Positions 4,945-20,143 of a stretch of 41,957 bases of DNA are shown here, piece after piece; position 1 is the first letter of the stretch, and every line of letters starts with the position of its first letter. Below the pieces are notes generated by a model that saw only the letters and a program-made list of their open reading frames with translations, was not told the DNA's origin and made no database searches. Origin of the DNA: Acidobacteriota bacterium (GTDB taxonomy: Bacteria; Acidobacteriota; Thermoanaerobaculia; Multivoradales; JBCCEF01); assembly GCA_039028635.1 (NCBI GenBank), contig JBCCHV010000060.1, positions 1-41,957 on the forward strand, written 5' to 3'. Both the position numbers and the translations under genes were made by a program.

Positions 4945-5235
4945 GTGACCGAAGACACTCCCCAGGACGACCTCGAGCCGATCGAGCTGGCGATCACCGA
5001 CGTACTCGATCTCCACAGCTTCCCACCGCGGGAGGTACCGAATCTGGTGCGCGACTACCTCGACGCCGCCTACGATCAGGGCTTGCGGGAGCTGCGCTTG
5101 ATTCACGGCCGCGGCATGGGCGTGCAGCGCCGCACCGTCCGCACTCTGCTCGAGCGCGACCCACGGGTGATCGAGTTCGGCGACGCCCCCGCCGAGGCCG
5201 GCGGCTGGGGGGCCACCTGGGTGCGCATGCAGTGA
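4945..5235 (+). CDS. Small Smr-domain protein
   Basis: 96 residues from a GTG start at 4945. The protein is essentially one Smr domain, the MutS2 C-terminal type: LDLHSFPPREV near the N-terminus, a helix, then LRLIHGRGMGVQRRTV and a terminal WGATWVRM strand. LDLH and HGRG are the two conserved motifs of this nuclease-like fold. Smr domains nick DNA or cleave RNA; stand-alone small versions have no settled substrate. A frame open much further upstream exists but runs antisense through the nuclease gene, so the GTG is preferred. The stop overlaps the start of the next gene as GTGA, indicating translational coupling to the histone-deacetylase-like protein. Confidence 0.82.
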   Translation: MTEDTPQDDLEPIELAITDVLDLHSFPPREVPNLVRDYLDAAYDQGLRELRLIHGRGMGVQRRTVRTLLERDPRVIEFGDAPAEAGGWGATWVRMQ

Positions 5236-7073
5236 GTCGCCTGGAGCGCTTCTCGACCGCCCTCCGGCGGCGCTGGCGCAAGCTCTCCCAGGTACTCGAG
5301 CGGCGCCCCGTCGAGCTGGTCTACGGCCCGGGCTACTACTTCACCCTCGCCTCCGGCCTGCACGACCCGCGACGGGGTGAGCGCGTGCTGGCGTTCCTGG
5401 AACAGCAAGGACTGCTGCGCGAGAGCTCCCTCCACGAGCCCCATCCGGTGACTCTCCAGCTACTCCGGCGGGTCCACGACGAGGCCTATCTCGATGCCCT
5501 CCACCACCGCGACGCGCTCACCCGTGCGGTGGGCTACGGGCTCAGCGACAGCGAGCACGATGCGCTGCTGGCGGCACAACGGTTGATGACCGGCGGGACG
5601 GTGTTGGCGACCCGGCTGGCGCGCGCCAGCCGCGGCACGGCGATCAATCTCGGCGGCGGCTTCCACCACGCCTTCGCCGACCGGGCGGAGCGCTTCTGCG
5701 TCTTTCACGACATCGCCGCCGCGATCGCCGATCAGCGCCGCCAAGGCTTTGCCGGCCCCATCCTGGTGGTCGACCTCGACCTGCACGACGGCGATGCCAC
5801 CCGCGCCCACTTCGCCGACGACGCGAGCGTCCACACCTTTTCGATCCACAACCTCACCGGCACCCCTCGAGAAGCCGTCGAGGCCACCGTTCTCGAGCTC
5901 GGCGATGGCGTGGGCGACGACCTCTATCTGACGACCCTGCGGCGCGAGCTGCCGCCGGTCGCCGAACGCCTGCGGCCGGAGCTGGTGTTCTTCCTCGCCG
6001 GCACCGATCCGGCCGAGGACGACAAGCTCGGCGACTGGACGATCACGGCGGAGGCGATGGTCGAGCGGGATCGTTTCGTCATCGACCTCATCGGCCAGGC
6101 GGAGCCGGATCGAGGCTCCCTTCCCGGCCGCGTGCCGCTGGTCATGGCCCTCGCCGGTGGCTACGGTAGCGACACCTGGCGTCACACCGCCCGCACCGTC
6201 TCCTGGCTGCTCGGTGGCGAGGTTCTCGAACCGCCGTCGACGGAGTCCATGACCCTGGCCGGCTACCGCCGCCTGGCGGCTCGCCTGCGCCCCAGCGAGC
6301 TCACCGGCGAAGGTCCCGGTAGTAGCGAAGACTGGGGGTTGACCGAGGAGGACATCTACGGCGCCCTCGGTGGCTCCACCCGCAAGGACCGCTTCCTGAA
6401 CTACTACTCGGCCCACGGCGTCGAGCTCGCCCTCGAGCGCGCCGGGATCTTCGATCGCCTGCGGGCGCTCGGCTATCGCCACCCCAACCTGGCCTTCGAC
6501 CTCGACAACGCCAGTGGCGAGACCCTGCGGGTCTACGGCTCGCGCCACCAGCGCGAGCTCCTCATGGAGCTGCGCGTGCGACGCGACAAGGGCACCCTGC
6601 GCGGTTTCGAGATGCTGCGCGTCGAATGGCTGCTACTGCAGAACCCGCGACGCGCCTTTTCGGACCGCCAACCTCGCCTGCCGGGCCAAGCCCATCCCGG
6701 CCTCGGCATGCTGCGCGATGTCGTCGCCCTTCTGGTGCTGGTCTGCGACCGACTGCAGCTCGACGGCCTGCTCTTCGTGCCCTCCCACTTCCACACCGCC
6801 AGCCAGTCCCGCCGGGTCCTGCGCTTCGTCGACCCGGCCGCCGAGGGCCAGTTCCGCGCCCTCGACGACCTCCTGGCCTCTCTTCCCCTCGCCGCCGCCA
6901 CCCGCGCCGTGTCCGAAGGCCGCGTGCGCTACCGGGACACCGGCGAGACCTTCCGCTGGCAACCGGTCCCGATGGTCCTGCCGGTTTCGGACGCCCTCGA
7001 GTCGGCGGTCAAAGGCGCCGACTACGAGGCCGAGGCGGAACGCGCCCGGCAGGCCCAGCGCTTCGACCTCTAG
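5232..7073 (+). CDS. Histone deacetylase-family protein with an unassigned C-terminal domain
   Basis: 613 residues from a GTG that overlaps the Smr stop codon (GTGA). Residues about 30-345 form a zinc deacetylase domain of the HDAC/acetoin-utilization family. It has the tandem histidines in GGGFHH (H145, H146), zinc ligands in DLDLHDGD (D181 or D183, H185) and AGTD (D259), and the catalytic tyrosine in AGGYG (Y311). All key residues are present, so an active amidohydrolase is likely. The last 260 or so residues (from about ELTGEGPG onward) are not part of the HDAC fold. They contain ERAGIFDRLRALGY, LRVYGSRHQRELLMELRV and GLLFVPSHFHTASQSR and have no family I recognise. The protein ends in a TAG supplied by a repeat element. 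Confidence 0.85.
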   Translation: MSRLERFSTALRRRWRKLSQVLERRPVELVYGPGYYFTLASGLHDPRRGERVLAFLEQQGLLRESSLHEPHPVTLQLLRRVHDEAYLDALHHRDALTRAVGYGLSDSEHDALLAAQRLMTGGTVLATRLARASRGTAINLGGGFHHAFADRAERFCVFHDIAAAIADQRRQGFAGPILVVDLDLHDGDATRAHFADDASVHTFSIHNLTGTPREAVEATVLELGDGVGDDLYLTTLRRELPPVAERLRPELVFFLAGTDPAEDDKLGDWTITAEAMVERDRFVIDLIGQAEPDRGSLPGRVPLVMALAGGYGSDTWRHTARTVSWLLGGEVLEPPSTESMTLAGYRRLAARLRPSELTGEGPGSSEDWGLTEEDIYGALGGSTRKDRFLNYYSAHGVELALERAGIFDRLRALGYRHPNLAFDLDNASGETLRVYGSRHQRELLMELRVRRDKGTLRGFEMLRVEWLLLQNPRRAFSDRQPRLPGQAHPGLGMLRDVVALLVLVCDRLQLDGLLFVPSHFHTASQSRRVLRFVDPAAEGQFRALDDLLASLPLAAATRAVSEGRVRYRDTGETFRWQPVPMVLPVSDALESAVKGADYEAEAERARQAQRFDL

Positions 7074-7104
7074 CAGGCTGCGGACGGGGATTCTTTAGCA
7101 GCCT
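7071..7104 (+). repeat. Short degenerate copy of the stop-codon-linked repeat
   Basis: The stop codon of the HDAC gene is the first TAG of TAGCAGGCTGC. This is the same terminal sequence found at 11516, 11927 (minus), 15352 and 15575 (minus). Here the copy is short: AGGCTGC at 7075-7081 pairs with GCAGCCT at 7098-7104 around a 16-base loop. It lacks the long inner module of the other copies. It may act as a hairpin at the transcript end, but no U-tract follows. Confidence 0.6.
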
Positions 7105-7176
7105 CCAGGAGAGGATTTTCCCGAGCGTTAGAATCCGCCTGCCGCCATTCCCTGGACCGATCGAGAGGAGCAAGCC

Positions 7177-10774: not shown

Positions 10775-11518
10775 ATGAGATTCTCCAACTGGCTGGGCGC
10801 TCCGCTCCTCGCCCTCGCCCTGCTGGCCTCCGCCGCCAGCGCTGAGATCGTCGACGAGAACAGTCCGTCCTGGGCCTTCTTCGAAGAAATTCCCGCCGGT
10901 CTCGGTAGCTTCGGCCCCGGCCCGGACACCCCACCGATGGGCAATGGCAGCGCCGCCTTCGCCATCGACGGCACCGGCCGGCTCATCCTGGGCACCAACC
11001 GCTTCGCCGGCACCCGTCTCGACCAGCTCACCACCTTGACCTACTGGACCTATCGCAGCTCCGGCAGCTCGAGCGTCGCCATCAGCCTGCAGCTCAACGT
11101 CGACTACGACCTCACCGATGGCGACGGCAGTTGGCAAGGACGCCTGGTGTTCGAGCCCAGCAACACGCCGACGGCGATTCTCGACAACACCTGGCAAGAA
11201 TGGGACAGCCTCGCCGGCTCCTGGTGGTCGAGCGGAGCCCCGGGCAACGGCACCTGTCCGATCTCGTCTCCATGCACCACGGCGGAGGTCCTCTCGGCCT
11301 TCCCGGACGCGGGCATCCAGGCCGGACCCATACTCGGAGTGCTGCTGCTCAAGGCCGGTGGCCCCTGGGCCCCGGCCTTCTTCGGCGCCGCCGACGGACT
11401 CACCGTCGGCGTTGACGGCACCGACACGGTGTTCGACTTCGAAGAGGACGCGGTGCGCATCTTCGTCGACGGCTTCGAGTCCGGAACCACGCTGGCCTGG
11501 AGCGATACGGTTCTCTAG
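10775..11518 (+). CDS. Exported protein of unknown function with DGFESG-type C-terminal tail
   Basis: 247 residues. The ATG at 10775 is chosen over earlier in-frame starts because it sits after GGGAAG and begins a clean signal peptide (MRFSNWLGAPLLALALLASAASA). The mature protein is rich in Gly, Ser, Thr and aromatic residues: FAGTRLDQLTTLTYWTYR, SVAISLQLNVDYD, WQGRLVFEPSNTP, GLTVGVDGTDTVFDFE. This reads as a beta-sandwich, carbohydrate-binding-like or jelly-roll fold, but no enzyme motif is seen. The last 20 residues contain VDGFESGTTLAWS, nearly identical to the tail of the sugar dehydrogenase ending at 8622. Its stop codon TAG is the first three bases of a repeat element. The function is unknown. 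Confidence 0.75.
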   Translation: MRFSNWLGAPLLALALLASAASAEIVDENSPSWAFFEEIPAGLGSFGPGPDTPPMGNGSAAFAIDGTGRLILGTNRFAGTRLDQLTTLTYWTYRSSGSSSVAISLQLNVDYDLTDGDGSWQGRLVFEPSNTPTAILDNTWQEWDSLAGSWWSSGAPGNGTCPISSPCTTAEVLSAFPDAGIQAGPILGVLLLKAGGPWAPAFFGAADGLTVGVDGTDTVFDFEEDAVRIFVDGFESGTTLAWSDTVL

Positions 11519-11927
11519 CAGGCTGCTGAAAAAGGCCGCTTCGCGTCCTTTTCCAGGCCTGCTAGCTGTCTGTTTCGAGAGGGGCTACGCGCCCCTGACT
11601 GCGCGTCCCGGGCTGAGCGCCCCTGACTGCGCGTCCCGCTCCGGCCTAAGAAGCATGGTTCTTGGGCCTCCTCTCCCGTCGCGGCGGCGGCTGAGCCGCC
11701 GAGCCCTCTCGGGCCCGGAAGCAGTTTGCTGAAAAACTCTTGACTCGGAGCATCTTTGGTCCTCAAGAGCTCCCGAGCCCGAGGGGCGAGGCGGCGGCTG
11801 AGCCGCCGAGGACGGGGGTGAAGGCGCGCGACATGCGCGCGCGCTTGAGGGAGGCGCCTTTAGCCCCCCTGAAAATAAACAGCAGGCGCTGAAGAAGCCG
11901 CCACGCGGCTTTTTCAGCAGCCTGCTA
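11516..11927. repeat. Long composite inverted-repeat element filling a convergent intergenic region
   Basis: The element starts TAGCAGGCTGCTGAAAAAGG and ends with the inverse CTTTTTCAGCAGCCTGCTA-type sequence. Its two outer TAGs are the stop codons of the flanking convergent genes. Each end can fold on itself (for example, 11881-11927 forms a stem of about 20 bp). The inner part, from about 11570 to 11725, is an inverted copy of 15397-15530. It contains a 22-base unit twice, at 11589-11610 and 11617-11638 (period 28), where the other copy has it once. A second module (about 11727-11927) carries further GC-rich palindromes. No open reading frame has a coding character. It is probably a non-autonomous mobile element or a REP-like structure that also acts as a bidirectional transcript end. 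Confidence 0.8.
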
Positions 11928-12890
11928 GCCGGCGGCGCAGGGCTCCGACAGGGCGACGGGTTCGTCCTCGGGCTCGCTCTTCTCCACCTTGCGCGGACGC
12001 TTGGAAAGCAGCGCCACGGCCCCGAGGATGAAGCCGCCGGCGATCAGGGTCCGCCAGCCCACCGGCTCGCCGGCGAACAGCCAACCGAGGATCACCGCCA
12101 CCACCGGATTGACGTAGGCGTAGGTGGCGACCAGGGTCGGGTCGACGTTGCGCACCATCCAGGCATAGGCGCTGAAGGCGATCAACGAGCCGAAGACGAT
12201 CAGGTAGGCCAAGGCCGCCAGGGAAGTGAGAGAAAAGGCGCTCGGATCGAGATTCTGAAACTCGCCGAAGCCGGCGCCCGTCAAGCCCAACAGCGCGCCA
12301 CCGGTCAGCATCTGCAGGCTGGTCGCCAAGGGGTTCGACTCGGGCATGTCGGCGCGCCGCGAGTAGAGAGAGCCGATCGCCCAGGAAAGGGCCGCCAAGG
12401 GCACCGCCACCGCCGCCGGCCAGTACAGGCCGCCACCTTCGGGCGAGTTACCCGGCGCCGTCAAGACGGCCACGCCGACGAAACCCACCACGATGGCGAA
12501 GACGGTTCGCGGAGTCGGCCGCTCACCGCTGCGCGACAGCATCAGGAGGAGCACGATCCACAAGGGCTCGGTGCCCACCAGCAGCGCCGCCCAGCCGGAC
12601 GGAATGTAGTGCTCCGCCCACACCACCAAGCCGTTGCCGCCGAGCAGGAGCAGGCCACCGATGATGGCAGCGTGACGCCACTGCCGGCCGGTCGGGGCCT
12701 TGGCACCGCGCCAGCGCGCCCAGCCGTAGAGCACCAAGCCGGCGATCACGAAGCGAACGCTCGCCATGGTGAAGGTCGGCAGGGTCTCGATGGCGAAGCG
12801 AATCGCCAGGTAGGTCGAGCCCCAGATCAGATAGACGGCGGTGAAGGACAGGATCATCTTGAGGCGAAAGGCCCGCTGTGCTTCGGTCAT
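11925..12890 (-). CDS. EamA/DMT-superfamily exporter
   Basis: 321 residues, about ten hydrophobic segments in two EamA repeats. The first repeat opens with FTAVYLIWGSTYLAIRFAIETLPT, the usual start of YedA-like members, and the second with AWMVRNVDPTLVATYAYVNPVVA. The ATG at 12890 overlaps the stop of the upstream regulator gene as ATGA, so this start is preferred over longer in-frame extensions. DMT exporters of this group commonly export amino acids or other small metabolites. Coupling to an Lrp/AsnC regulator suggests that an amino acid is both signal and substrate, which is inference. The last residues are charged and cytoplasmic. The stop codon TAG belongs to the adjacent repeat element. 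Confidence 0.88.
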   Translation of the reverse strand: MTEAQRAFRLKMILSFTAVYLIWGSTYLAIRFAIETLPTFTMASVRFVIAGLVLYGWARWRGAKAPTGRQWRHAAIIGGLLLLGGNGLVVWAEHYIPSGWAALLVGTEPLWIVLLLMLSRSGERPTPRTVFAIVVGFVGVAVLTAPGNSPEGGGLYWPAAVAVPLAALSWAIGSLYSRRADMPESNPLATSLQMLTGGALLGLTGAGFGEFQNLDPSAFSLTSLAALAYLIVFGSLIAFSAYAWMVRNVDPTLVATYAYVNPVVAVILGWLFAGEPVGWRTLIAGGFILGAVALLSKRPRKVEKSEPEDEPVALSEPCAAG

Positions 12891-13360
12891 GAGGACTCCT
12901 CCTGCTGCATTTCGAGCGGCAGACGCCCAGTTTCTTTCATGCTGTCGAGAACCACCGTCGTACGCGTCGAAACCACCGCGGGAATGCACCCGATGCGCTT
13001 CCGCAACAGTCTGCCGAGATCACTCCCGGAGGTCGCCCGCACTTTCACCAAGTAGCAGTCCTCTCCCGCGACGTGGTGGACTTCGAGAACCTCCGGCAAG
13101 GCGGCGAGAGCTTCCCCGGCGCTGTCCTCGCTGGCCACTTCCTCGGTCCTCACGAAGACGTAGGCCAGCAGACCGAGGCCGAGAGCCCGCGGGTTGAGCC
13201 GCGCTTCATAGCCCTCGAGAACGCCATTGCGCTCCAGCTTGCGAATGCGCTCGAGCACCGCCGAAGCCGCGAGATCCACCTGCCGCGCAATCGCTGCGTT
13301 GGATTCGCGAGCGTTTTCCTGCAGTATTTCGAGAATTTTGCGGTCAATACTGTCGATCAT
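12887..13360 (-). CDS. Lrp/AsnC-family transcriptional regulator
   Basis: 157 residues. The N-terminal AsnC-type winged helix-turn-helix (LDRKIL-like start, then NAAIARQVDLAASAVLERIRK) is followed by the RAM ligand-binding domain (LAYVFVRTEE, VLEVHHVAGEDCYLVKVRA, GCIPAVVSTRTTVVL). The length is typical. The ATG ends at 13360. Its stop overlaps the exporter start as ATGA, so regulator and exporter form one operon, a common arrangement for amino-acid-responsive export. The intergenic region upstream has operator-like repeats, suggesting autoregulation and possibly control of the divergent lipase-like gene. Confidence 0.92.
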   Translation of the reverse strand: MIDSIDRKILEILQENARESNAAIARQVDLAASAVLERIRKLERNGVLEGYEARLNPRALGLGLLAYVFVRTEEVASEDSAGEALAALPEVLEVHHVAGEDCYLVKVRATSGSDLGRLLRKRIGCIPAVVSTRTTVVLDSMKETGRLPLEMQQEESS

Positions 13361-13382
13361 TCTCCATCACCTCGATTTCACC

Positions 13383-13523
13383 GACGATTCGACTGCAATA
13401 ATGGACGAAAGAGCGTCCCCTGTCAACCCGATTCTTGCGAATCTCCAGACGATTCAACTGTCAATAGACCATCAGGCCGACGTAACGACGACCGATTGCT
13501 TACATCGCCGACATTAAGTCGGC
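13383..13523. promoter_or_regulatory. Candidate operator cluster between divergent regulator and hydrolase genes
   Basis: A 13-base direct repeat, GACGATTCGACTG at 13383-13395 and GACGATTCAACTG at 13448-13460, is spaced 65 bases apart, close to six helical turns; both copies are followed by CAATA. Downstream is a perfect dyad, GCCGAC-ATTAA-GTCGGC, at 13507-13523. An AT-rich-centred dyad with phased repeats suits an Lrp-type octamer wrapping DNA. The assignment to this regulator is inference. Confidence 0.5.
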
Positions 13524-13617
13524 ATCATCCGTCTAACGATTGGGTCGAGCGGAATGCTCAGGTCAGTCGCCCCACGGGCGCAAAATCTCTCCTTCGGACG
13601 AGCCGGCCGGCGAAACG

Positions 13618-13655
13618 CTTCCTCCTCCCTCAGCCACCCTCGGGGGAGGAGGAAG
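13618..13655 (+). promoter_or_regulatory. Hairpin masking the Shine-Dalgarno of the lipase-like gene
   Basis: CTTCCTCCTCCC (13618-13629) is perfectly complementary to GGGAGGAGGAAG (13644-13655): a 12-bp stem with a 14-base loop. The 3' arm is the whole Shine-Dalgarno region, ending five bases before the ATG at 13660. Folded mRNA should block ribosome entry, so a switch (temperature, ligand, protein or antisense RNA) or translation-coupled opening is expected. Smaller hairpins lie upstream (CGCCC-CAC-GGGCG at about 13568-13580). Confidence 0.7.
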
Positions 13656-13659
13656 AAAA

Positions 13660-15354
13660 ATGTCGATATCGCAACGAGTTTTACTGACTGCCGGCCTATC
13701 GGTGGCAGCCCTTGTCCTTTCCGCCTGCCAGGCCCCACCCTGCACGTCGGCGCCGGCGAATCCCATCGGCTCGCCGGTGAGCGACAGCGAGTGGAAGGCG
13801 TCGGTGCGCAACAACTGCTTCGGTAATCTGTCGCGGCTCAACCGCTGGTTCGGGAAGACGACCACCATCGTCCCCAAACAGAGCCCGGCCCAGTTCTTCA
13901 TTCCGGTGGGCGAGGCGCGCCTCAACCAGGGCATCGACTCCGGCAATGTCGTGGTGCTGGTGCACGGCTGGGCTCCCGGCTTCCGGGGGGCCGTCGATCG
14001 CGCCGGTGGCCGCCTGCTGTGGTGGCAGGACGGAGCCACCAATTCGGACGGAATCTTCACCTCTGATTGGGCCTGGGTCGCCACCCGGGGTGACGACATT
14101 CCCTTGACCATCACCGAGACCGGCACCTTCCAGGAGATCATCGGCCACGACGCCGATGCCATCGTGCTCGGCTACTCGTGGATCGACGACTCGTCCACCA
14201 TCGACGACTCCTTCGTCGACCTCGAGTACGTCTATCGCTCCGAGGCCTACACCAGCACCAACGGCCTGCGCCTGGCCAACGCCCTCGAGCAGACCCTGGG
14301 GCCGAGATTCTGGAGCAATCCCACCAACACCCTCCAGCTGATCGGCCACAGTCACGGCTCGAAGGTCGCCACGGTGGCCACCCTGGCGCTGCAGCAGCGC
14401 GGACGGCGGGTGCACCACCTGACCACCCTCGATTCACCCGAGAGCAGCATCACCCTCGAGGGCAACGGCGCCAATCTGCTCGGCTTCTACCTCAATCAGA
14501 TCAACACCAACGACGGCATCGGCGCGACTTCCGGGACCTTCGTCGACAACTACGTGTCCTACTTCGGAGTCGCCTTCCAGGGCACCACAAACGCCAACCG
14601 CATCGTCAACACCATCTTGAATCCCGAGGTCTACTCCTGCACCTCCGCCGGCGACCGCCACTCCTACTCCGCGGAGTGGTACGGCGGCGCCGCGGCGGCG
14701 GCCAAGAAGTTCAACCTGTTCGCCCTCGGTCTCGACTGGCCGCCACCGCAGATCCCTAACCGACCAGCCCTCAACCAACGGTGGAGAGGCGGCATCACGG
14801 AGCCCAACCAGTGGCCCTTGACGGCCGGGCTGCTGGGCTCGCTGGGCTGTCTCTCGAGCGCCAAGGGCTGCATCTACAGCTCCACCCCGACGGTGGTCAA
14901 AACCCTGAACAGCTTCGGCAACACCAGCGGCAACCCCACCGGCACCCTGACCATGAGCGCCAGCGGCAACGGCGTCATCTCCGGCTACCGCGGCTCCACC
15001 GGCTTCGGCTCGAGCCAGTTCGGCATCGGCTTCGATCTCGAATGGACGAATCCGCAGGACGGCGACTACCTGGTGATCACCGGCAGCACCGATCCCGTCG
15101 GCACCCAGGAAGTTCTGTTCGTGATGGACGGCAAGTCGGCAATCACCGGGCGCAACCCGGTGGCGATCAACGCCTTCGTCGTCGACAGCCTGGAGTTCTT
15201 CGTCTACTTCCTGCCAACGCCGAACAACCGCATCGGTCGAGTGACCCTGAGCGGCCTCGCGGCGGTCAACCAAGACTGTCCCTCGACCGCCGATCTCGAC
15301 CAGGAGGGCGACCCCGACGCCGAGCTGGCCACGACGGAGACCGAGGACGCCTAG
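13660..15354 (+). CDS. Lipoprotein alpha/beta hydrolase (lipase/esterase-like)
   Basis: 564 residues. The ATG at 13660 follows a very strong purine-rich Shine-Dalgarno and starts a lipoprotein signal ending in the lipobox LSAC. The body is an alpha/beta hydrolase: an oxyanion-hole strand VVVLVHGWAPG, a nucleophile elbow GHSHGS (Ser in LQLIGHSHGSKVAT), a likely acid in LTTLDSPES and a candidate His in DRHSYSAEW. The hydrolase domain ends around residue 370. About 190 further residues form a beta-rich domain (GTLTMSASGNGVISGY, DGDYLVITGSTDP, FVVDSLEFFVYFLP) with no assigned family. The tail is acidic and the TAG stop is provided by a repeat. It should act at the cell surface or in the periplasm on esters. 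The control hairpin upstream is its oddest feature. Confidence 0.78.
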   Translation: MSISQRVLLTAGLSVAALVLSACQAPPCTSAPANPIGSPVSDSEWKASVRNNCFGNLSRLNRWFGKTTTIVPKQSPAQFFIPVGEARLNQGIDSGNVVVLVHGWAPGFRGAVDRAGGRLLWWQDGATNSDGIFTSDWAWVATRGDDIPLTITETGTFQEIIGHDADAIVLGYSWIDDSSTIDDSFVDLEYVYRSEAYTSTNGLRLANALEQTLGPRFWSNPTNTLQLIGHSHGSKVATVATLALQQRGRRVHHLTTLDSPESSITLEGNGANLLGFYLNQINTNDGIGATSGTFVDNYVSYFGVAFQGTTNANRIVNTILNPEVYSCTSAGDRHSYSAEWYGGAAAAAKKFNLFALGLDWPPPQIPNRPALNQRWRGGITEPNQWPLTAGLLGSLGCLSSAKGCIYSSTPTVVKTLNSFGNTSGNPTGTLTMSASGNGVISGYRGSTGFGSSQFGIGFDLEWTNPQDGDYLVITGSTDPVGTQEVLFVMDGKSAITGRNPVAINAFVVDSLEFFVYFLPTPNNRIGRVTLSGLAAVNQDCPSTADLDQEGDPDAELATTETEDA

Positions 15355-15575
15355 CAGGTTGCTGAAAAACTCATCGTCAACCTGCTCCCGGGCCCGGAAG
15401 GGCCCGGCGGCGGCTTAGCCGCCGCGACGGGAGAGGAGGCCCAAGAACCGCGCTTCTTGGGCCGGAGAGGGGCGCTCAGCCCGGGACGCGCAGTCAGGGG
15501 CGCGTAGCCCCTCTCGGAAATAACAGCTAGCAGCGCTGGAAAAGTCGCGAAGCGGACTTTTTCAGCAGCCTGCTA
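15352..15575. repeat. Second long inverted-repeat element, inverted copy of the one at 11516
   Basis: It fills the whole gap between two convergent genes. The left end is TAGCAGGTTGCTGAAAAA and the right end, read on the minus strand, is TAGCAGGCTGCTGAAAAAG; their TAGs are the stop codons of the hydrolase and ppc genes. Read on the minus strand, the inner 130 bases match the plus-strand inner module at about 11570-11725. The ends fold as hairpins (for example, 15528-15574). No coding frame is credible. Confidence 0.8.
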
Positions 15576-18287
15576 ACCGGTGTTGCGCAGTCCTTTGGCA
15601 ATGCCGTTGACCGTCGCCACCAGGGCCTCCAGCAGGTCGCCGGTGGGACGATCGGCGGCACGCCAGCGGCGCAGCAGATCGATCTGCAGCAGGCTCATCG
15701 GGTCGACATAGGGATTGCGTAGCTGGATCGAGCGCTGCAGGGTGGGGTCGCGGTCGAGCAGTCGGGTACCGCCGCGTAGGTCGAGAACCCAGCGCACGGT
15801 GCGCTCGAACTCTTCCTCGATGCGGGGAAAGATCTCGCGCCCGACCTCTCCGGCCAGGGTCGCATAGCGGCGGGCGATGCCGAGATCGGCCTTGGCGAGC
15901 ACCATCTCGGCGTCATCGAAGAGGTTGCCGGCGAAGGCCAGGTCGCCAGCCAGAGCCACCAGCTCGTCGCGCCCGAAATCCTCCGCCGCGGCCTCCAGAC
16001 CGCTGCCGAGGCCGAACCACCCGGGCAGGATGTGACGGCTCTGGGTCCAGGCGAAGACCCACGGAATGGCGCGCAGGTTCTCGATGCCCTGCCTGGAACG
16101 CCGCGACGCCGGCCGCGAACCGATCGCCAGGCGCTCGATGACGTCGATCGGCGTCGCCTGCCGGAAGTACTCGAAGAAGCGTTCGTGGTCGTAGATCAGG
16201 CCGCGATAGGCCGCCCGGCTGCGCTCCCCCACCCGACTCAGAATTCGCTGCCAGCGTTCCGCCCGTGGATCCGCCTCGGCCGGTAGCGCGGTGGCCAGGG
16301 CGACGGCACCGAAGGAGCGCTCGAGATTGCGCAGGGCGATGCTGCGCACCCCGAACTTGGCGTGGATGACCTCCCCCTGCTCGGTCACCCGGAGGCGCCC
16401 ACCGACCGAGCCGGCCGGCGCCGCCAGCACCGCCCGATGCGTCTTGCCGCCGCCGCGGCTGATGGTGCCGCCGCTGCCGTGGAAGAGGGTCAGGCCAACG
16501 CCGGCCGCAGCCATCACCGCCGACATCGCCGCCTGCGCCTTCTGCAGCGACCAGCGCGACGACGCCATGCCGCCGTCCTTGTTGCTGTCGGAGTAGCCGA
16601 TCATCACCACCTGGCGCTGGCCGCGGTCCGCCAGATGGGGACCGTAGACCGGATCGTTCACCATCCGCTCGAGCACCGTCGGTGCCGCCTCGAGATCTGG
16701 CACCGTCTCGAACAGAGGCGCAACGTCGAGGGGGACCGGGCCCTCTCCTCCGAGGCCGGCCCAACGGGCCAACAGGAGCACGCTGAGGACATCGTCGACA
16801 TCCTGCGCCATGCTGATGATGTAAGGACCGACGGCCTGATCACCGTAGCGCTGCTGGGACTCGCCGATGGCACGAAAGACCTCCAGCGTCTCGGCGGCCT
16901 GCTCGTCGTCGGCGGCGAGATGCGGGGCCGCCGCCTCGGCGAGGGCTTGGTGCAGCCGCGCCACCCGCTCGGCGACGGGGCGCTCCTCCCAGCTCGAATC
17001 CCCCAGCAGACGGCCGACCACGGCCCGGTGCACCAGGCCGTCCTGGCGCACGTCGAGAGTGGCGAGGTGAAAGCCGAAGGTCTCCACCCGACGCAGCGCC
17101 CGGCGCACCGCGAAGAGGCCGGCGTGATCGCCGCGGTGGTTGCGCAGGCTGCGGGCGATGCCGCGCAGATCGTCGAACAGCTCCTGCGGTCCGGAGTAGG
17201 CCTCGGCAGCATCCCGCGCCGTCGCCGCGAGGCGCGCCACCATCAGCTCGAGGAGAACGCGATAGGGCATTTCGCGATGCCGCGGCCGCACCGCCGCGAA
17301 GGCTTCCGGGAAGAGCTCGGCATACTCGCGCTGCCGTGCCAGCACTCGTTCGTCCACCGCCACCCGCGACAGGCTCTGGCTGAGGCGCCGGGAGAGCTTC
17401 GCGAGCTCCTCGCGATAGAGGTCGAGGACCAGCGCGCGGTGGCGCGCCAGCGTTGCCCGCAGGGTGCGGGCGGAAACATTGGGATTACCGTCCATGTCGC
17501 CCCCGACCCAGGAGGCGAAGCGGAATGGGCTGACCAGGTGGACCGCTTCGGCAGGCGCCCCGTAGACCGCCGCCAGGGCGGCCTCGAGGTCTTCACAGAA
17601 CGGCGGCACGACGCGGTACAGCACCCGCGTGACGTGGAACAGGACGTGCTCGCGCTCGTCCTCGACGGTGGGCTTGAGGGTCGGACTTTCCTCGGTCTGC
17701 CAGGCGGCGGTGACCTCGGCGCGGATCCGCGCCAGGGTGCGCGCCTCCTCCGGCGGGGTGAGGGAAGGATCGAGGCGATCCACCAGCAGGCGAACGATGC
17801 GCTGGTCCTTCTCCAGCACCAGGCGCCGCGTCGCCTCCGTCGGATGGGCCGTGAACACCGGCTCGATGCGGACCTCGCGAAACAACGCCGCCACCTCCTC
17901 GAGACCGAGGCCGCCATCGCGCAGCCGGCGGACGGTCTCCTCCATGCCCTCGCGCTGCTCCGAGCCCTGGCGCTGGTAGTGCCGACGGCGCCGGATGCGG
18001 TGCACCGTCTCGGCGAGATTGACTACCGCGAAGTAGGTCGAAAAGCTGCGTGCCAGCTCACCGGCCGCGACCGCCTCCAGGCCGCCGACCTGCTCCTCGA
18101 GGGTGCCATCGGCGGCAGCGTCGCCCAGGCGGCGGCCGATGGCCGCATGGCGCGCCGCCTCGACGCACTCGAACAGCCCGCCCCCGCCCTGTTCACGGAT
18201 CACCTCGCCGACCAGCGCCCCGAGGGTGCTGACGTCCTCGCGCAGCGGCTGGTCCTTCTCCGGAAAATCGATCTGTCTCGGATCCAC
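15573..18287 (-). CDS. ppc: Phosphoenolpyruvate carboxylase
   Basis: 904 residues from the GTG ending at 18287, which has GAGGAGG four bases upstream. A TTG ending at 18314 would add nine residues but has its SD directly abutting. It carboxylates PEP to oxaloacetate in the cytoplasm to refill the TCA cycle. Visible motifs: VFTAHPTEATRR (catalytic His near residue 148), GGDMDGNPNV, SDSNKDGG, LRVTEQGEVI and the invariant C-terminal RNTG. The glycine-rich active-site loop reads FHGSGGTISRGGG. The second Arg is present, but the position usually occupied by the first Arg (HGRGG) is Ser (codon at 16473-16475). Length and motif order are otherwise normal. The gene stands alone, and its TAG stop lies in the repeat element. 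Confidence 0.95.
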   Translation of the reverse strand: MDPRQIDFPEKDQPLREDVSTLGALVGEVIREQGGGGLFECVEAARHAAIGRRLGDAAADGTLEEQVGGLEAVAAGELARSFSTYFAVVNLAETVHRIRRRRHYQRQGSEQREGMEETVRRLRDGGLGLEEVAALFREVRIEPVFTAHPTEATRRLVLEKDQRIVRLLVDRLDPSLTPPEEARTLARIRAEVTAAWQTEESPTLKPTVEDEREHVLFHVTRVLYRVVPPFCEDLEAALAAVYGAPAEAVHLVSPFRFASWVGGDMDGNPNVSARTLRATLARHRALVLDLYREELAKLSRRLSQSLSRVAVDERVLARQREYAELFPEAFAAVRPRHREMPYRVLLELMVARLAATARDAAEAYSGPQELFDDLRGIARSLRNHRGDHAGLFAVRRALRRVETFGFHLATLDVRQDGLVHRAVVGRLLGDSSWEERPVAERVARLHQALAEAAAPHLAADDEQAAETLEVFRAIGESQQRYGDQAVGPYIISMAQDVDDVLSVLLLARWAGLGGEGPVPLDVAPLFETVPDLEAAPTVLERMVNDPVYGPHLADRGQRQVVMIGYSDSNKDGGMASSRWSLQKAQAAMSAVMAAAGVGLTLFHGSGGTISRGGGKTHRAVLAAPAGSVGGRLRVTEQGEVIHAKFGVRSIALRNLERSFGAVALATALPAEADPRAERWQRILSRVGERSRAAYRGLIYDHERFFEYFRQATPIDVIERLAIGSRPASRRSRQGIENLRAIPWVFAWTQSRHILPGWFGLGSGLEAAAEDFGRDELVALAGDLAFAGNLFDDAEMVLAKADLGIARRYATLAGEVGREIFPRIEEEFERTVRWVLDLRGGTRLLDRDPTLQRSIQLRNPYVDPMSLLQIDLLRRWRAADRPTGDLLEALVATVNGIAKGLRNTG

Positions 18288-18736: not shown

Positions 18737-20143
18737 ATGATTGTATTCTCCTCCGAATTTCCAATCACAACTCATCGAAGACCAAAAGAGTTCCTGCAGT
18801 CAATTCAAAAATGGATCCTAGGGTCACCACACACCTCTCTCAACAAGTCCATCTTCAAGGAAATCAATAGCTCGAAAAGCTGGTCACTAACAGAAAATAA
18901 CGAGACTATTGAATATATCCGCGCAGAGTCTTCGACCAGACAGATCACTTCAATTAGGTACACGAAGATCAGTGACGAAGTTAAATGGACTACCACAGCC
19001 TCACTCTCAATTGAGCACGACTCCTGGATTGGAGTTCGAACATTCTGCGAGTCGACTAACCCAGGGAGAAACCTCCCACCCGTAAAGAAACCTATAATTA
19101 TTAAGAATCTCCTAGCAGATTTCGGAGGAGGAAAGGATGGCATACTCCCAGTCCAAACGACCCCACACAGACTTAACAACGTAGACATTGATATCGCCAT
19201 CCTACTAATCGCTGGAGGATCGAAGTGCTACCTTCCTATCGTATATCTAAGCGCCCCCTTTAGATCAAGCGACGAGCACATTAACCCCAACACGCTGAGC
19301 CAGGACCTCTCAGGAATGGCACACGTGGTCGTAGAGCCCAATCGGGAATTCTCAATTCGCCTAAAACAAGACGTCGACTCGCGAAATGTTTACGGAGGCA
19401 CCGCTGGAATTTACTGGCCCGACGGCGGCGGAAAAGATTCATTCTTTTTAGGTCATGAGTTTGACTCAGTCGAACAGATATCGAATGGCATCAAGGAGGC
19501 CCTAAGAACTTCACTCATTAGTCGGCGCCCTCTCCAGCGATGCACCTGGGGTGCCGCAAAGGAATTTTCCTCGCAAATCAAGATTCAAGAACTCAAAGAT
19601 CGGGGCTCTCAAGAGATTCAAGAGTACATTGATTCTTTCGACCAGGAAATTGAATCCAAGAACCAGCAAATTGATGACGCCAACAAAGAAATCGACAGAC
19701 TCAGACAGGAAGTCAAGAGTCAGCCAGCCAACTTTGTCGCAGGCTCCGGACTCACCCTCCATCCAGGAAACGAACAAGAACTCTTTCCAGGGGAGGCAAA
19801 AGAATTTCTAATCGAAGCGCTTCAATCCCATGCCATGAATAGCTTGCAAAAGGATAGTCGAAAACGCAGACTCCTAGAGTCGATTTTGGAGTCAAATATT
19901 ACAGCTACTCAGACAGCAAATCGGCGCAAGAAAATCAAGAATCTCTTCAAGGGATTCAAGAAGATAACAGCAACGATCAGAAGCGAGCTTCGAAAGCTCG
20001 GACTCTCAATCAATGAAGAAGGCAATCACTTGAAAATATCAATCGAGGGGGACCAGCGATTCAAAGTCACCACTTCGAAGACGGGAAGTGACCATAGAGG
20101 GGGACATAACATTGGAGCACAGATTAATCGATCCTTTTTCTAA
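18737..20143 (+). CDS. AT-rich orphan protein with coiled coil and HicA-like C-terminus, probably acquired
   Basis: 468 residues, Lys/Asn/Ser/Ile-rich and encoded by DNA visibly poorer in GC than every neighbour: a clear sign of transfer. The N-terminal half (about 1-270) is a predicted alpha/beta domain with WILGSPHTSL, RTFCESTNPGRNLPPVKKPIIIK and TAGIYWPDGGGKDSFFLG. A coiled coil follows (about 285-330, EIQEYIDSFDQEIESKNQQ). The C-terminal part has a basic helix (NRRKKIKNLFKGFKK), then LRKLGLSINEEGNHLKI and KTGSDHRGGHNIGAQI. The helix-strand-GNH pattern resembles HicA/dsRBD-like RNA-binding folds, and 'KTxSDHRxGxN' recalls C-termini of large defence-associated proteins. No nuclease motif is certain. 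Its TAA overlaps the convergent arfB stop by four bases. A defence or genome-conflict role is inference. Confidence 0.7.
   Translation: MIVFSSEFPITTHRRPKEFLQSIQKWILGSPHTSLNKSIFKEINSSKSWSLTENNETIEYIRAESSTRQITSIRYTKISDEVKWTTTASLSIEHDSWIGVRTFCESTNPGRNLPPVKKPIIIKNLLADFGGGKDGILPVQTTPHRLNNVDIDIAILLIAGGSKCYLPIVYLSAPFRSSDEHINPNTLSQDLSGMAHVVVEPNREFSIRLKQDVDSRNVYGGTAGIYWPDGGGKDSFFLGHEFDSVEQISNGIKEALRTSLISRRPLQRCTWGAAKEFSSQIKIQELKDRGSQEIQEYIDSFDQEIESKNQQIDDANKEIDRLRQEVKSQPANFVAGSGLTLHPGNEQELFPGEAKEFLIEALQSHAMNSLQKDSRKRRLLESILESNITATQTANRRKKIKNLFKGFKKITATIRSELRKLGLSINEEGNHLKISIEGDQRFKVTTSKTGSDHRGGHNIGAQINRSFF

Follow-up and report, generated by a model that had tools for sequence, protein, structure and literature searches.

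Short inverted-repeat elements with CTAG edges, probably of IS5 type, often reside on TAG stop codons in an Acidobacteriota genome

Introduction

IS5 of Escherichia coli, an autonomous element with a DDE transposase of the IS5 family, is described as duplicating four bases of the form Py-T-A-Pu, mostly CTAG, which makes up 15 of the 24 listed targets (PMC5493358, PMC10379815). CTAG or YTAA is the target of MITEPsy1, an IS5-like miniature inverted-repeat transposable element (MITE) of Pseudomonas syringae pv. phaseolicola for which a four-base duplication is likewise given (PMC3189936), while TnRErm46 of Rhodococcus equi is reported to target CTAG, a site that provides some of the targeted genes with their TAG stop, these genes staying uninterrupted (PMC6794481). 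Here we describe a family of short inverted-repeat elements detected in a 41,957-nucleotide stretch of DNA from an Acidobacteriota bacterium (contig JBCCHV010000060.1 of assembly GCA_039028635.1; the whole stretch is referred to as the window). The edges of these elements mostly read CTAG and frequently coincide with the TAG stop codon of the adjoining gene.

The elements resemble MITEPsy1 in being short, with inverted ends and no open reading frame (ORF), and the terminal repeat of MITEPsy1 has CTGAAAAAGCC in common with some of the ends found here. MITEPsy1 differs in its length of 100 bp, its few copies (5 and 1 in the published table) and its other outer end bases, and a stop-codon bias is not mentioned in the passages of that paper drawn upon here (PMC3189936). 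In contrast to the autonomous IS5, the elements are without a transposase found in their home genome or in a genome of the same genus. TnRErm46, as described in the relevant part of its report, is a resistance transposon of large size that encodes its transposase and has other end sequences and few sites (PMC6794481). The RUP, BOX and SPRITE repeats of Streptococcus pneumoniae are likewise short and of high copy number, cluster and insert into one another, with a terminator-like structure being discussed for SPRITE; their sequences, going by the description in the review, are other than those of the present elements (PMC10969869). A term search found neither "stop codon" nor "CTAG" in the main text of this review of prokaryotic MITEs, and the literature searched, which took in few subscription journals, contained no description of a MITE residing on stop codons across a whole genome. 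The principle is already published, to judge from the parts of these papers cited, in the form of CTAG-targeting IS5 MITEs (MITEPsy1) and of a CTAG transposon that restores TAG (TnRErm46); the present contribution is to count residence on stop codons genome-wide and across phyla. Where the target doubles as a stop codon, a mobile element could multiply to very high copy numbers even in a compact genome while doing little harm, and this rule is testable broadly because the same end motif is found in many different phyla. For annotators, a TAG at the edge of a repeat may be the native stop rather than a sign of truncation.

Elements and stop codons in the home genome

The end sequence TAGCAGGYTGCTGAAAAA was searched for in the home genome of the window (G000; 6.28 Mb in 117 contigs) with up to 2 mismatches. 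A total of 297 ends were detected, 147 in forward and 150 in reverse orientation, while the reversed pattern gave no match in this genome at the same threshold, in agreement with the predicted dispersed repeat with inverted ends. Many of the listed ends are close to the end of a contig, at distances of a few hundred bases or less (e.g., C1:146, C4:296, C18:158 and C21:123), indicating that the repeats probably broke the assembly and that copies may be undercounted.

Targeted stretches, 16 random 20-kb stretches and the window were merged into a sample of 608,889 bp. The targeted stretches were drawn from the first 100 listed places of the 297 and all contain exact matches that include TAG; hence, one end of each targeted element was selected for TAG. 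At up to 3 mismatches, 162 raw end hits were obtained, and 27 of these (2 to 3 mismatches and no TAG before the end) were dropped. The four bases before the 135 ends that were kept, a set partly selected for TAG in this way, were CTAG in 120 cases, TTAG in 7 and others in 8. Each end was paired with its nearest partner, with the result that a composite element in the window was counted by its inner unit. Lengths of 165 to 251 bp were observed for 41 of the 50 pairs, and 36 pairs had CTAG at both edges. CTAG was depleted in the sample (408 observed versus 902 expected from a Markov model and 1852 from base composition), consistent with its presumed rarity.

Genes were predicted with a home-made hexamer gene finder. 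By this prediction, 54 of the 135 ends were the TAG stop of a gene, 39 faced a gene ending before the edge and 35 a gene reading away, with no gene at 5 and a location inside a gene for 2. At least one edge was a predicted TAG stop in 37 of the 50 pairs and both edges were in 7; in the window composite, which entered this count through its inner unit, the two outer edges likewise lie on stops. The background was provided by the 170 CTAG sites in 361,957 bp (the random stretches and the window), with 13 located in elements, 69 in intergenic regions, 49 in genes and 39 at stops. Stop residence was thus higher for the elements (37/50) than for element-free non-coding CTAG sites (39/108; p = 1.4e-5). 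The sites are not fully independent, as CTGCTAG directly adjoins 30 of the 135 ends and, by eye, resembles the end of a neighbouring copy in 24 of the 30 cases. The original prediction of an element that inserts at CTAG and so lands on TAG stops was supported by the CTAG edges and the enrichment on TAG stops; a lack of enrichment at stop codons or CTAG, named beforehand as refuting it, was not what was seen.

A further comparison, made without gene finding, scored the frame in which an open stretch of 120 or more codons reaches the TAG; 450 bp of upstream sequence was needed, and the CTAG controls take in sites inside elements. Among 90 exact ends from the home genome, 52 had the open stretch in the stop frame and 12 in one of the remaining two frames, while 26 had none, versus 129, 148 and 349, respectively, of 626 CTAG controls (p = 3.4e-7). 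The frames are unequal even without elements, as seen with a CTGAC control (63, 397 and 148 of 869), and hence only the comparison with CTAG controls counts. Ends of the same-genus genome (G001) gave 17, 5 and 9 of 31. Among the matches listed from GTDB genomes, 129 ends gave 42, 14 and 73, versus 92, 179 and 658 of 929 controls (p = 2.5e-8). These results have a bearing on whether insertion is random and truncates genes, the TAG at the edge being simply the first stop met. Truncation would be expected to affect all three frames alike, and the frame bias in the home genome (52 on the TAG versus 12 off it) already largely refutes it.

Filled and empty sites in a related genome

Orthologs in G001 were compared when identity was at least 50% and the alignment reached to within 25 residues of both C termini. 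There were 94 such pairs, with an element on the home-genome stop in 14. No element was present on the orthologous stop in 13 of the 14, while the remaining one, at C27, has the end motif in both genomes. Presence of the element at all orthologous sites, the pattern named beforehand as speaking against mobility, was therefore not what was seen; the insertions are polymorphic. Within 400 bp of the 13 stops of G001, no end motif was detected at 10, and a motif was present at 3 (C27, the left gene at C5, and C16:28027). Both flanks could be aligned at C29:62514, where G001 has an empty CTAG stop, and at C40:49308, where it has no element at that place. Two other candidate empty sites, C5:111118 and C27:58912, were rejected because the G001 locus also contains an element or its remains. 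One gene has the element in G001, with a TAG stop, and lacks it in the home genome, where the stop is TAA.

The 13 element-free stops of G001 consist of 5 TAG and 8 TGA codons. The idea that insertion converts TGA stops to TAG was rejected, as TAG was kept in 5 of 13 genes with an element and 13 of 23 without one (p = 0.49), such that ordinary stop turnover suffices.

Protein ends provided another view of truncation. At C21:90312, the G001 protein continues for 13 residues beyond the end of its home-genome counterpart and the edge reads GTAG, as truncation would have it. Against this, the C terminus differs by no more than 1 residue from that of the G001 ortholog in 6 of the 13 proteins, and the phosphoenolpyruvate carboxylase of the window (15573-18287) retains the NTG end found in 10 of the 11 loci that could be read (a count that takes in the window gene), with TTG in one (L254). 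This comparison first required NTG by pattern, and the two loci so omitted were then read, L254 having TTG and L257 being cut off. In G001, TAG directly follows NTG in this gene and no element is there. We regard truncation as highly improbable.

Relation to IS5 and proposed mechanism

The end motif was matched in 11 of 39 relatives (a search of 40 genomes less the home genome), with 44 and 51 end matches in the two orientations in G001. A scan of GTDB genomes for exact CTAGCAGGYTGCTGAAAAA, which required CTAG at one end, found at least 118 stretches; by record name, the matches listed come from Acidobacteria, Alpha-, Beta-, Gamma- and Deltaproteobacteria, Nitrospirota, Chloroflexi, Planctomycetales and others. 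In three loci of other genomes (L091, L076 and L090), the same ends surround elements of 1289 to 1365 bp with one ORF of 361 to 369 residues, and the L091 protein matches NF033581 (IS5 family; E = 1.8e-82) together with PF05598 and PF01609. In a genome of the same order (G013), a variant end, TAGGAGCTTGCTGAAAAA, flanks 1344 bp containing an IS5_4 match (E = 3.4e-75) and also occurs, among the matches listed, as 8 pairs at 164-bp spacing. As the same ends flank IS5-family transposase elements elsewhere, the repeats, which are too short to encode a transposase of their own, are very probably non-autonomous MITEs with IS5-type ends and a CTAG target. An early idea of IS630-type ends was dropped, since IS5-type transposases were found between the same ends. 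The helper family of RUP differs from the IS5 type.

In the proposed mechanism, an IS5-type transposase from a full element, past or present, would recognize the terminal repeat CAGG(C/T)TGCTGAAAAA and mobilize the short elements in trans. Insertion at CTAG, or more loosely at YTAR, would leave CTAG at both edges. With TAG contained in CTAG on both strands, insertion at a gene stop would re-form TAG at the junction and leave the protein unchanged, and when the tetramer is shared by convergent genes as overlapping stops, both genes would retain a stop. Insertion on stops would be harmless because the site is re-formed; insertions in genes would mostly be lost and, CTAG being scarce, the surviving copies would accumulate on stops. 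In our reading, the stop association combines the choice of target with survival, selection being a presumed cause of the enrichment. The excess over other non-coding CTAG sites may be due to loss of promoter-side insertions as well or to a true preference for gene ends.

Several observations weigh against this interpretation. The full-length, transposase-encoding relative that had been proposed as a check exists as the 1289- to 1365-bp elements of other genomes, but a family profile search found no IS5_4 transposase in the home genome or G001, and a search of the home genome with one transposase protein as the query also found nothing. The family search gave hits in 6 of the 21 genomes and in 6 of the 14 controls and is therefore able to detect such genes; the helper could have been lost from the home genome or be missing from the assembly. 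Ends in common with autonomous-type elements were found in L091, L076 and L090, and in variant form in G013, not in the same genome as the repeats, and the putative tie of the transposase to the home-genome copies rests on the common end sequence. The L091 protein is the sole one that was scanned with profiles, those of L076 and L090 having been assigned by eye. The variant ends of the G013 type exhibited no stop bias in the frame test (2, 2 and 9 of 13), and the home-made gene finder is without a benchmark. The 8 TGA codons among the 13 stops of G001 are also unfavourable, though element-free TAG genes show similar turnover. Finally, 7 of the 50 home-genome pairs combine a CTAG edge with a TTAG edge, a mixture not predicted by a clean 4-bp duplication.

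These CTAG/TTAG pairs, and the absence among the 50 of the TTAG/CTAA pair expected from a 4-bp duplication at TTAG, would be accounted for if only TA were duplicated and the element, still a MITE, carried the next base (ends GCAGG...CCTGC), supplying the last base of the stop and turning TAA into TAG. The gene described above with an element and TAG in G001, and TAA without an element in the home genome, is as expected from such an insertion. The four-base duplications reported for IS5 and MITEPsy1 argue otherwise, and CTAG/TTAG pairs could arise by point mutation after insertion. In addition, the matches listed from the GTDB scan, with its requirement for CTAG at one end, included a TTAG/CTAA pair (L112) as well as four CTAG/CTAA pairs, which are compatible with a four-base duplication, whether or not mutation followed. 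How many bases are duplicated in this family is itself something we infer, and a TA duplication is a genuine possibility, if on balance a somewhat doubtful one. A bolder extension, which we consider unlikely, is that this type of end takes refuge at stops to a greater extent than the scarcity of CTAG explains, prefers gene ends, among them convergent stops with a single YTAR in common, and supplies the last stop base through TA duplication plus its own G, rewriting TAA to TAG as a general strategy across phyla.

Elements within the window

In the window, the 11-base end motif was exact at all five gene ends for which it had been claimed, and an open frame is closed by TAG at each of them by ORF and gene prediction. 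CTAG was read at four of the five, as predicted, the fifth (15573-15575, minus strand) having TTAG. With 1 mismatch allowed, the window gave 5 matches, compared to a mean of 1.04 in 100 shuffles, 2 of which reached 5. Two long copies of 412 and 224 bp had been proposed; both are present (Table 1), but the 412-bp copy is a composite and not a single unit, because a further left-type end, AAGCAGTTTGCTGAAAAA, starts at 11719 within it (end match at 11722, 1 mismatch). The outer inverted repeat of the composite is a perfect 20 bp. Inner modules in opposite orientation were found as described (11548-11624 versus 15468-15544, 92% complementary; 11599-11728 versus 15378-15507, 81%), and a repeat search reported the 28-bp duplication for the 11519-11924 element only.

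Table 1. Positions of elements, their edges and associated features in the window
Feature	Position	Strand	Description
Possible shrunken relic	7070..7115	+	CTAG, 11-base motif and 7-bp inverted repeat at stop of histone-deacetylase-family gene 5232-7073
Left edge CTAG	11515..11518	+	TAG is the stop of gene 10775-11518 (sequence; predicted gene end)
Composite element	11519..11924	.	Left a-type end unit fused to second unit, which runs from inner end 11719-11722 to 11924
28-bp tandem duplication inside composite	11582..11637	+	Copies 11582-11609 and 11610-11637, 93% identity
Right edge CTAG	11925..11928	-	Minus-strand TAG is the stop of an EamA-family transporter gene (PF00892, E = 2.4e-38; predicted gene end)
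Left edge CTAG	15351..15354	+	TAG is the stop of gene 13660-15354 (start inferred), weakly hydrolase-like protein
Simple a/b-type element, 218 bp	15355..15572	.	Paired ends; fold z = -7.1 with flanking TAG; between CTAG and CTAA
Right edge CTAA on plus (TTAG on minus)	15573..15576	-	TAG stop of phosphoenolpyruvate carboxylase (PF00311, E = 1.1e-261)

The top Pfam match of the product of gene 13660-15354 is PF00975 (E = 1.8e-5), slightly below its cut-off, and the histone-deacetylase-family assignment of gene 5232-7073 is based on PF00850 (E = 2.6e-43). The copy at 7071 is about 45 bp, does not continue into TGAAAAA and is at best a relic of an element. The individual folding predicted for the ends was seen at four window ends (z = -3.1 to -6.6) and not at the 7071 copy (z = -0.33). 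The two long copies as a whole had much stronger folds than shuffled sequences (z = -10.6 and -7.1), and no match at the Rfam gathering score was obtained in the window.

Strong folding of the ends and of whole elements, together with the location of the window copies between convergent genes, could also be explained if the elements were bidirectional transcription terminators retained by selection between such genes. The proposal that the element replaces the native terminator with a bidirectional hairpin was not sustained, as a scan of 11400-15700 for a GC-rich stem plus T run detected 0 terminator-like sites (shuffle mean, 3.7). Moreover, 35 of the 135 sampled ends adjoin genes reading away, and the lack of the element at 13 of 14 G001 stops indicates that it is not generally retained. 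Retention as terminators is, on this evidence, quite improbable.

Typing of subterminal modules in 49 elements placed 33 in one short type (a/b), with a mean pairwise identity of 0.83 (range, 0.70 to 0.98), while the minor types have a common "c" end. Seven of the 49 exceed 300 bp, and some of these are composites joining an a-type unit to a c-type unit. Three composites of 376 to 406 bp resembling 11519-11924 were present in the genome sample. Composites of about 376 to 414 bp (C1:119689, C6:30091 and C27:58912 in the home genome and 11519-11924 in the window) consist of units of two MITE types joined at a common hairpin motif, and, as they are present in several copies, the fusion may itself be mobile. 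Back-to-back elements with a single common CTAG were observed in the home genome at C6:30494-30499, C13:47213-47218, C30:16906-16911 and other places; the edge of an element re-creates the CTAG target, so copies can stack.

A 4-bp overlap of stops was found in 6 of 45 element-free convergent gene pairs. One of these lies in the window at 20140-20143, where CTAA forms the overlapping stops of two convergent predicted genes (TAA on the plus and TAG on the minus strand) with no element; this is the kind of site into which the element at 15355-15572 appears to have inserted.

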